Notes under the pieces: model-generated
The model's input: only the letters and a program-made list of their open reading frames with translations
Told to the model about the DNA's origin: nothing
The model's database searches: none
Source: Mesorhizobium sp. 65-26
GTDB taxonomy: Bacteria > Pseudomonadota > Alphaproteobacteria > Rhizobiales > Rhizobiaceae
NCBI GenBank assembly: GCA_001899205.1
Contig: MKVL01000012.1
Location: 62,001-126,000 of the forward strand
DNA length: 64,000 bases
Direction of reading: 5' to 3'
Made by a program: the position numbers and the translations under genes
In this document: one piece after another, positions 49,441 to 51,928 of the stretch
Layout of the letters: every line of letters starts with the position of its first letter
Position numbering within the stretch: position 1 is the first letter of the stretch

Positions 49441-49504
49441 AGTTGCAGAGCAAATTTGTGCGATGCGGCGAGAGCCGCGAAATGACGTTTCGGGGCGGAC
49501 TGGA

Positions 49505-50146
49505 ATGCGGCTGATCGCCGAAAATCTGGGCGGCGAGCGCGGCGGCGAACCGGTTTTCTCCGGTATAGGCTTTACCCTCGACAAGGGTGAAGCACTGGTG
49601 GTGACCGGCCCGAACGGCGTCGGCAAGTCGACGCTGCTCCGGGTTGTCGCCGGGCTCTTGCCGGCAAGGCCGGGCCGTGTCCTGGTCGAGGGCGGCGGCG
49701 AGGATTTTCCCACGGTCGCCTCGGCCTGCCACTACCTCGGCCATCTCAATGCGATGAAGACGGCGCTGAGCGTGGCGGAAAACCTGCGGTTCTGGCGGAG
49801 TTTCCAGGGCGATTCGGGGCAGGCCAATTCGGCGGGAGAGGGCACGCCGGCGCCGGGCGTCGAGGATGCCCTGAAGACCGTCGGCCTCGGCGGTATCGGC
49901 CATCTGCCGTTCGGCTATCTGTCGACGGGGCAGAAGCGGCGGGTGTCGATCGCCAAGCTCCTGATCAGCCACAGGCCGGTGTGGTTGCTCGACGAACCGA
50001 CGGCCGGGCTGGACAAGGCGTCCGAAGGGCGATTCGCCGGGCTGATGCGCGCGCATCTCGAAAGCGGAGGGATACTGATCGCCGCCACGCACCTGCCACT
50101 GGGGCTTGAGGGTGTGAAGACGTTGAGGATGGGGGAAGCAGACTGA
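49505..50146 (+). CDS. ccmA: cytochrome c biogenesis ATP-binding export protein
   Basis: 213 aa ATPase of the CcmABCD complex that releases holo-CcmE for heme delivery to periplasmic cytochromes c. Walker A VTGPNGVGKSTLLRVVAGLLPARPG (about residues 33-57), the CcmA-typical CHYLGHLNAMKTALSVAENLRFW, signature LSTGQKRRVSIAKLL and Walker B VWLLDEPTAGLDKASE. Start ATG 49505 (MRLIAENLGG); the upstream in-frame ATG at 49463 is less likely. A repeat separates it from ccmB by 253 bp, unlike the usual tight spacing. Confidence 0.95.
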   Translation: MRLIAENLGGERGGEPVFSGIGFTLDKGEALVVTGPNGVGKSTLLRVVAGLLPARPGRVLVEGGGEDFPTVASACHYLGHLNAMKTALSVAENLRFWRSFQGDSGQANSAGEGTPAPGVEDALKTVGLGGIGHLPFGYLSTGQKRRVSIAKLLISHRPVWLLDEPTAGLDKASEGRFAGLMRAHLESGGILIAATHLPLGLEGVKTLRMGEAD

Positions 50147-50182: not shown

Positions 50183-50312
50183 TTTCCTCGCCCCACGGAA
50201 GTGGGGAGAGGTGGCTCGGGCAAAGCCCGGGACGGAGAGTGGAGCGTCCTATGAAATCCCCCTCTCCGGCCGCTTCGCGGCCACCTCTCCCCCACTTCGT
50301 GGGGGCGAGGAA
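50183..50312. repeat. MITE-like element between ccmA and ccmB, family B
   Basis: About 130 bp bounded by TTCCTCGCCCCAC on the left and GTGGGGGCGAGGAA on the right, near-perfect terminal inverted repeats. Inside, GTGGGGAGAGGTGGC on the left mirrors GCCACCTCTCCCCCAC on the right, so most of the element can fold on itself. No ORF. It interrupts a normally compact operon. Confidence 0.75.
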
Positions 50313-50399: not shown

Positions 50400-51068
50400 A
50401 TGCTAGCCCTCTTCCTTCGCGATATCCGCCTTTCGATCCGCGCCGGCGGCGGCGCCCTGACGGGCGTCATCTTCTTCCTGGCGGTGATCGCCACCATTCC
50501 GTTCGGCGTCGGGCCGGACCTGAACCTTTTGTCGCGCATCGGCCCGGCGATCCTTTGGATCGGCGCCTTGCTCGCCTGCCTGCTCGGCCTCGACCGCCTG
50601 TTCCAGGCCGATCGGGAGGACGGCTCGCTCGACCTCCTCGTGCTGGCCAACGAGCGTCATATGCTGGCGCTCACCGTGTTCGTCAAATGCCTGGCGCACT
50701 GGGCCGGCAGCGTGCTGCCGCTGGTGGTCGCAGCACCCCTGCTCGGCCTGTTCATGAACATGGACCCGTCGGGCATCGGCGCCACCGCACTGACGCTGCT
50801 CGTCGGCACGCCGGCCATCACCTTCATCGGCGCCGTGGGCGCGGCGGTGGCGGTGGCGCTGCCGCGCGGCGGGTTGCTGATCTCGGTGCTGGTGCTGCCG
50901 CTGACCATCCCCATCCTCATCTTCGGCGTGTCGGCGAGCTACGGCGCCTCGTCGGTCGGCCAGGGCACGTTCACCCAGCCCTTCCTCATTCTCGCCGCGC
51001 TGACGCTGTTTCTTGCCGTCATCGGCTCGGTCGCGGCGGCGCTGGCACTGCGCCACGGCACGGACTGA
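50400..51068 (+). CDS. ccmB: heme exporter protein B
   Basis: 222 aa membrane component of the CcmABCD complex with six helices. Begins MLALFLRDIRLSIRAGGGALTGVIFFLAVIATIPFGVGPDL, then WIGALLACLLGLDRLFQADREDGSLDLL (the CcmB signature) and HWAGSVLPLVVAAPLLGLFMNM. The length is normal. The ATG at 50400 is the family start; the long upstream open frame runs through the inserted repeat. The usual downstream partner ccmC is absent. Confidence 0.96.
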   Translation: MLALFLRDIRLSIRAGGGALTGVIFFLAVIATIPFGVGPDLNLLSRIGPAILWIGALLACLLGLDRLFQADREDGSLDLLVLANERHMLALTVFVKCLAHWAGSVLPLVVAAPLLGLFMNMDPSGIGATALTLLVGTPAITFIGAVGAAVAVALPRGGLLISVLVLPLTIPILIFGVSASYGASSVGQGTFTQPFLILAALTLFLAVIGSVAAALALRHGTD

Positions 51069-51147
51069 TGTCGCTGCTTGGGAGCGCGCATCCGATCCGC
51101 AAATCTGCCGCATGTGGCGTTCATTGCGACAGGCGGCCGGCACGATT

Positions 51148-51183
51148 ATGAAAACGGCTGACAGGATCTGGACCCGGACATGA
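51148..51183 (+). pseudogene. possible ccmC deletion scar (11-codon ORF)
   Basis: Only 111 bp separate ccmB from ccmD, where a ccmC of about 250 codons is expected. The gap ends with an 11-residue ORF, MKTADRIWTRT, whose TGA overlaps the ccmD ATG by four bases exactly as an intact ccmC would. The simplest reading is an internal in-frame deletion that left the first few and last few codons. No CcmC WWD-type heme motif occurs in any frame offered by the window. The identity of the remnant codons is inference. Confidence 0.35.
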
Positions 51184-51350
51184 GCGCGCACGCCCTTTAC
51201 GTCACCGCCGCATATGCCATCACGGCGATCGTGCTCGCCGGATTGGTCGGCTGGGTGCTGCTCGATCAGCGGGCGCGCCGGCGCGACCTCGCTGAACTGG
51301 AGGCCGCCGGCGTGCGCAGGCGTTCCGAGAGATCGGGCAAAGCGTCATGA
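51180..51350 (+). CDS. ccmD: heme exporter protein D
   Basis: 56 aa small membrane protein that holds CcmE to the CcmABC complex. Sequence starts MSAHALYVTAAYAITAIVLAGLVGWVLLDQRARRRDLAELEAAG: one membrane helix (about residues 8-28) followed by a basic and charged cytoplasmic tail, exactly the CcmD layout. The ATG overlaps the TGA of the 11-codon ORF, and its own TGA overlaps the ATG of ccmG (ATGA), so translation is coupled on both sides. Confidence 0.9.
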   Translation: MSAHALYVTAAYAITAIVLAGLVGWVLLDQRARRRDLAELEAAGVRRRSERSGKAS

Positions 51351-51928
51351 GCATGGACACGCGAACGCCGTCACCGGCCCGCCGCCGTCTGCTGGTGGTG
51401 CTGCCGCTGCTGGTCTTCATCGGACTGGCCGGGCTGTTCCTGTCGCAGCTCGTGTCGGGTCGCGACGTTTCGGAAATCCCCTCGGCGCTGATCGGGCTGC
51501 AGGCGCCGCGGACCGACCTGCCGCCGCTCGACGGCACCGATCTGCCGGGCCTCGATTCGAAATCCTTCGCCGGCAAGGTGACGCTGGTGAATGTCTTCGC
51601 CTCCTGGTGCGCGCCCTGCCGCGAGGAGCACCCGGTGCTGCTAGCGCTGTCGCAGGACAGGCGTTTCGTGATGGCGGCGCTGAACTACAAGGACAAGCCG
51701 GAGAATGCCCGGCGGTTCCTTGGCGAGCTCGGCAATCCGTTCCAGGCGATCGGCGTGGACCAGGCCGGCCGTACCGCGATCGACTGGGGCGTCTACGGCG
51801 TGCCGGAAACCTTCGTCATCGGCAAGGACGGCAAGATCGCCTACAAGCATGTCGGTCCGCTGACGCCGGACTCCGCGAAGGCGTTGCTGCTGCCGCAGAT
51901 AGAGAAGGCGCTGGCGGCGCCGGGCTGA
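51347..51928 (+). CDS. ccmG: cytochrome c biogenesis thiol:disulfide interchange protein
   Basis: 193 aa membrane-anchored thioredoxin-fold protein (CcmG/DsbE/CycY) that reduces apocytochrome c heme-binding cysteines. N-terminal anchor RRLLVVLPLLVFIGLAGLFL (about residues 13-33), active site NVFASWCAPCREEHPVL with WCAPC near residue 88, and cis-Pro loop GVYGVPETFVIGKDGKI near residue 148. The start overlaps the ccmD stop; a second ATG two codons on is possible. Last gene of the ccm cluster. Confidence 0.96.
   Translation: MSMDTRTPSPARRRLLVVLPLLVFIGLAGLFLSQLVSGRDVSEIPSALIGLQAPRTDLPPLDGTDLPGLDSKSFAGKVTLVNVFASWCAPCREEHPVLLALSQDRRFVMAALNYKDKPENARRFLGELGNPFQAIGVDQAGRTAIDWGVYGVPETFVIGKDGKIAYKHVGPLTPDSAKALLLPQIEKALAAPG

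Follow-up and report, generated by a model that had tools for sequence, protein, structure and literature searches.

In rhizobia, System I of cytochrome c maturation is encoded by an operon with the gene order ccmABCDG, the closest described system to the locus analyzed here. Our locus has the same order of ccmA, ccmB, ccmD, and ccmG in a genome that also encodes CcmC, CcmE, and CcmF; unlike in the described operon, ccmC is here a separate gene 3' of ndvA. Translational coupling through overlapping stop and start codons (ATGA) is a known mechanism, and the mini-ORFs that we find between ccmB and ccmD in type I gaps (defined below) likewise end in a TGA overlapping the start of ccmD; they differ in that the upstream ORF of the genus has 7–25 codons, is free in its peptide, and stands on the site of a former full gene. 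Imm50 immunity proteins (PF15594) offer a further comparison, since proteins encoded in the gaps of genus-mates pass the cut-off of that family and our locus keeps about ten codons of such a gene. Leaderless transcripts are also described in alphaproteobacteria, with 171 leaderless transcript starts mapped in Sinorhizobium meliloti (PMC3616915). The 24 training sites of our promoter model, at which a -10-like box ends 6–8 nt before the ccmC ATG, resemble this arrangement, with the differences that the element in our gap no longer precedes ccmC and that the ccmC start is predicted from sequence alone.

The ccm Operon Is without ccmC

We call "the window" the whole stretch of DNA that was analyzed: 64,000 nucleotides of Mesorhizobium sp. 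65-26 (contig MKVL01000012.1, positions 62,001–126,000). Profile searches identify CcmA, CcmB, CcmD, and CcmG in the usual order of the rhizobial operon (Table 1), with CcmA scoring 212.6 bits against a cut-off of 131.6 for NCBIfam TIGR01189 (scored on 49505–50146); the thioredoxin-like protein we take to be CcmG from its position in the rhizobial gene order. The original prediction, that ccmC is absent from its place between ccmB and ccmD, is borne out: the gap (51069–51179) is only 111 bp long and therefore has no room for CcmC. A long inverted repeat with arms of 23–25 nt lies between ccmA and ccmB (50184–50312). The 4.5 kb surrounding the gap match 31 plasmid records, none of them with 80% coverage; the best 5 of these 31 match in pieces only, and the annotated ones among the pieces are aconitase.

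Table 1. Features of the ccm locus (window coordinates unless a relative's locus is named)
Feature	Position	Strand	Remarks
ccmA, heme exporter ATPase	49463..50146	+	longest ORF; real start possibly ATG at 49505
ccmB	50400..51068	+	ATG at 50400; Pfam CcmB PF03379, E 4e-66
Imm50-like 5' remnant, about ten codons	51068..51097	+	ATG overlapped the ccmB stop
Spacer after the Imm50-like stop codon in relatives	51098..51119	+	seen when the eight type II gaps are aligned
Promoter-like element, putative ccmC promoter relic	51124..51152	+	match to relatives' ccmC promoters
11-codon ORF MKTADRIWTRT	51148..51183	+	ATG inside -10 box 51147-51152
ccmD	51180..51350	+	Pfam CcmD PF04995, E 1.6e-13
ccmG, thioredoxin-like	51347..51928	+	Pfam Redoxin PF08534, E 1.3e-17
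Imm50-like gene between ccmB and ccmD in relatives	L134 107-484		also L019, L045, L057, L126, L151, L152

A Complete ccmC Lies Downstream of ndvA

We find a complete CcmC of 252 aa on another contig of the same genome (C1:56453–57208), directly downstream of the glucan-exporter gene chvA/ndvA, so that the option that ccmC has moved elsewhere, one of several raised in the original prediction, proves to be the correct one. The protein scores 267 bits against a cut-off of 186 for TIGR01191 (ccmC) and matches PF01578 with an E value of 6.4e-39, its sequence contains the tryptophan-rich motif WGTWWVWD, and the neighboring ndvA is identified by TIGR01192 (702.7 bits, cut-off 585.4). A Pfam search with PF01578 retrieves two members in the window's genome, this CcmC and a CcmF on contig C25 that also matches PF16327; CcmE (PF03100, E 6.2e-35, with HDENY) is encoded side by side with CcmF. 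With CcmC complete elsewhere and CcmE and CcmF encoded, the puzzle of a missing function is gone, and with it the alarm over a missing essential gene: as far as tested, System I is present in the components examined, CcmA to CcmG, and nothing essential to it appears to be missing from the window's genome. At locus L001, a TPR-like-looking ORF stands 5' of ccmE, and at L002 an inverted repeat is found between ndvA and ccmC too (1309–1408).

The Arrangement Is Shared by the Sampled Genus

The sampled genus was taken as Mesorhizobium from named relatives: of the 80 named loci whose CcmB is closest, the majority belong to Mesorhizobium. Among the 99 genomes of this sample, ccmC is matched in 96 and ccmB in 98, and ccmB is followed by ccmD without ccmC in all 97 distinct gaps that could be read (L047, with no ccmD at the locus, was excluded). 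Relatives with the same 111-bp gap had been named as a sign of an ancestral state; a gap of the same kind is indeed present in these relatives, and one of identical length is seldom seen. The ccmC locus was retrieved from 24 of the 96 genus genomes that have a match, and ndvA lies directly 5' of ccmC in every one of these 24. In three genus genomes, G216, G260, and G261, ccmC was not matched. The latter two look like assembly gaps, because the contig breaks off beside ndvA, where ccmC would be expected; G216, with 8% contamination, has no ndvA above 44% identity among the matches listed.

The arrangement of ndvA followed by ccmC is common to 12 genomes from nine other genera. A free quick tree of CcmB plus CcmC from 57 genomes has three changes for the ndvA type, and when the ndvA types are forced into one clade, the best tree has a log-likelihood 8.77 above that of the free quick tree (p-AU 0.673). 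A single relocation of ccmC is thus the simplest reading, one that the tree test does not reject and does not prove. The relocation itself is real, is shared by the sampled genus, and has left a readable scar between ccmB and ccmD.

A Promoter-Like Element in the Gap

The 97 genus gaps are of two types: type II comprises eight gaps, including the window's, that share TTCATTGCG, and the remaining 89 are type I. In the window's gap, what remains of ccmC is a promoter-like element made up of TTGCGA (51124–51129), 17 nt, and TATGAA (51147–51152), with a predicted transcription start near 51159. The element was compared with 26 ccmC upstream regions from relatives outside the ndvA type. In 20 of these regions ccmC is adjacent to ccmB, in three the two genes are separated by about 0.5 kb, and in the other three (L070, L072, and L074) ccmC is either split from ccmB or located 4.4 kb further along. 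A pattern of TTG-N-TA is placed 6–8 nt 5' of the ccmC ATG in 24 of the 26, a distance that was restricted by the search, and from these 24 sites we built a two-block promoter model that was compared with 60 shuffles of each gap. The window's gap scores 14.4, against 0.8 ± 3.2 in its shuffled versions, none of which (0/60) reaches this score. All 60 shuffles are likewise beaten by 7/8 type II gaps, 71/89 type I gaps, and 9/12 gaps from other genera; 18 type I gaps and three from other genera fail to do so. Since the sites were picked by TTG...TA at a set distance and the model favors a 17-nt spacer, spacing and distance do not count as independent evidence.

At the ndvA locus, 33 of 36 sequences have a similar pattern 5' of ccmC, the other three being those of the genus-mates L104, L105, and L106, in which the sequence before ccmC differs and the motif is absent. 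A scan of 50950–51400 with a generic sigma-70 consensus gives no site; in S. meliloti, the -10 region of sigma-70 promoters is described as poorly conserved (PMC3616915). The element in the window looks like a relic of the old ccmC promoter, and if active it may help to transcribe ccmDG. In most type I gaps, the -10 box has drifted to TAAGGG or similar, so that there the element is possibly no longer a promoter.

Imm50-Like Genes in Type II Gaps

Seven of the eight type II gaps contain an Imm50-like gene that starts at the stop codon of ccmB. Its ORF is open over 125–127 codons in six of them and is broken after 66 codons in L126, and the two genus-mate proteins from the gap that were scanned match Imm50, with 55.5 and 65.8 bits against a cut-off of 27.1. 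The eighth gap, that of the window, has a remnant of the 5' end, which is identical in 19–22 of 30 bases to the 5' ends of the seven genus genes, and 22 identities are reached by none of 2,000 shuffles (0/2000). The Imm50 profile has no match in the window's genome.

Imm50 is rare across the family, occurring in 4 of 151 genomes, in three of them over the cut-off. Genomes G145 and G127, from two other genera of the ndvA type, have an Imm50 gene over the cut-off at the same spot (loci L087 and L089), and tblastn found no Imm50 in those retrieved operons that have a long spacer between ccmB and ccmC. On the short genus tree, the type II alleles are scattered, with eight changes for eight alleles. 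In addition, nine type I gaps open with ATGTGGC, like the start of the Imm50 gene, which hints at repeated loss of the Imm50-like gene.

Mini-ORFs Overlapping ccmD in Type I Gaps

We searched the 89 type I gaps for the first ATG, in any frame, that closely follows the old -10 box. All 89 have one, about where ccmC began; the search pattern was composed after viewing the sequences and then widened by a few variants. The frame of the TGA overlapping ccmD is held in 87 of the 89, at 11 different lengths; all but one of these 87 mini-ORFs (86/87) reach the overlapping TGA, the exception, L121, stopping one codon sooner. The two gaps that do not hold the frame are L154 and L173. On a genus tree made from 253–480 bases per row, the mini-ORF has at least 24 length changes and two frame changes, against 55 length changes and 34 frame changes for the upstream part of the same gaps, which served as the control and whose lengths modulo 3 are even (34/28/27). 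A mini-ORF ATG is also present in 8/12 gaps from other genera, and all eight are in frame.

Differences between mini-ORFs are spread equally over codon positions 1, 2, and 3; hence the peptide is not conserved, and we reject a functional mini-ORF peptide. Shine-Dalgarno-like cores are found 5' of the mini-ORF in 78/89 type I gaps and 5' of ccmD in 76/89, so that ccmD need not rely on coupling. The mini-ORF of L176 matches the start of its own ccmC in 26 of 45 bases, a value reached in one of 5,000 shuffles (1/5000), which is suggestive of a resemblance to the CcmC N terminus, in one of six genomes compared. Local alignments of two mini-ORF gaps, L176 included, with the start of CcmC did not exceed their shuffles.

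The retained frame suggests that the type I mini-ORF acts in cis as a translational coupler, built from the shell that the departed ccmC left behind. In its full form, this reading would be that an ORF of 4–25 codons with a free peptide is kept in frame solely for ccmD coupling in type I Mesorhizobium and some neighboring genera, with the -10 box of the departed promoter as its Shine-Dalgarno sequence, and that type II alleles keep the promoter instead; we give it an even chance. If it is true, two alternative repairs of one gene loss coexist within one genus.

Proposed History of the Locus and Its Alternatives

From these comparisons, we infer an order of events that we consider probable as a whole. 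In an ancestor of Mesorhizobium and neighboring genera, ccmC would have been placed, with its own promoter, directly 3' of ndvA, and the ccmABCDG operon would have lost the coding part of ccmC. Between ccmB and ccmD, the operon would have retained the promoter-like element, closely followed in most species by a start codon. An Imm50-like gene would then have been inserted into the gap in some lineages and, in the window's genome, lost again with its first ten codons left behind. In most other genus-mates, the leftover start would open a short translated ORF whose sole role is to hand ribosomes on to ccmD; in the window, the corresponding ORF would be accidental. With CcmC supplied from the ndvA locus, cytochrome c maturation is expected to be normal.

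A different origin of the scar, which we regard as unlikely, is that ccmC was excised in place and that the 11-codon ORF of the window is its remainder, kept for coupling to ccmD. The ORF was correctly read: an ATG (51148–51150) and ten codons lead to a TGA (51181–51183) that overlaps the ccmD ATG (51180–51182), as an intact ccmC can overlap ccmD, and the mini-ORFs that hold this frame in 87 of the 89 type I relatives lie near the ccmC start. The window's ATG, however, sits in the -10 box and not at the position of the ccmC start. Moreover, of the eight type II alleles, three (the window's among them) have this ATG in the overlapping frame, four have it in other frames, and one lacks it; a retention of three in eight is about chance level. 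Because the TGA lies within ccmD's own start, ATGAGC, any ORF in the overlapping frame that meets no stop before this TGA must end at it, and the 11-codon ORF of the window is probably a chance product without function. The proposal of a tidy internal deletion stands as regards a deletion scar, and fails as regards the gene concerned, as the deletion that can be read took the Imm50-like gene and not ccmC.

It is also conceivable, and in our judgment quite improbable, that the gap element is an ancestral promoter of ccmD unrelated to ccmC. It does stand 5' of ccmD in all eight type II alleles; however, in relatives with ccmC after ccmB, the element is 6–8 nt before the ccmC ATG, with ccmC lying between it and ccmD, and an element of this type is found 5' of ccmC in the 33 of 36 ndvA-locus sequences noted above. 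An assembly collapse that deleted ccmC from the contig would explain a short gap taken by itself, but it is extremely unlikely given that the distinct gaps of the genus, 97 in number, are likewise without ccmC and that ccmC is far from ccmB in single-contig genomes such as G003, G004, G009, and G011. The remaining options of the original prediction, a strain that has lost c-type cytochromes or an operon that works in a new way independent of CcmC, find no support and are rejected as having next to no probability, since CcmC, CcmE, and CcmF are all encoded.

The relocation of ccmC suggests a way in which a gene that carries its own promoter can exit an operon without breaking it. Mini-ORFs that keep their frame and are free in their peptide make it possible to test for selection that acts on translational coupling only, with the type II alleles as a natural comparison group within the same genus. 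The literature searched on ccmC in Mesorhizobium and on ccm operon gene order holds, by title, no account of the relocation, and searches on translational coupling of ccmD and on Mesorhizobium cytochrome c biogenesis with ccmB found nothing. For gene relocation with a relic promoter, the titles retrieved contain a chloroplast case only, and ccmC is absent among the matches listed from the literature on leaderless starts in S. meliloti. The lists of processes given in PMC5929573 name both ccmC and ndvA, unlinked there.

Other Arrangements in the Family

The 151 sampled genomes of the family include 101 in which ccmB and ccmC are adjacent (less than 300 bp apart) and 22 in which 0.4–5.1 kb separates them on the same strand. 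In another 26, the two genes are more distant from each other, differ in strand, or lie on separate contigs; the remaining genomes are G152, with ccmC not among the matches listed, and G104, with neither gene. Fourteen of the 26 split genomes have ccmC beside ndvA, namely the window's genome, its genus-mate G012, and the 12 from other genera. In nine more, ccmD and ccmG come after ccmC at a site other than that of ccmB (G082 was counted here from its ccmC locus alone), and the last three, G103, G125, and G191, may reflect contig breaks. This second split of the operon, which separates ccmC, ccmD, and ccmG from ccmA and ccmB, can be seen at loci L070, L072, L073, L074, and L095, as well as at L097, L099, L116, L118, and L119. 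Genome G187 has two CcmC matches, one inside the operon and the other on a different contig (L178 and L179).
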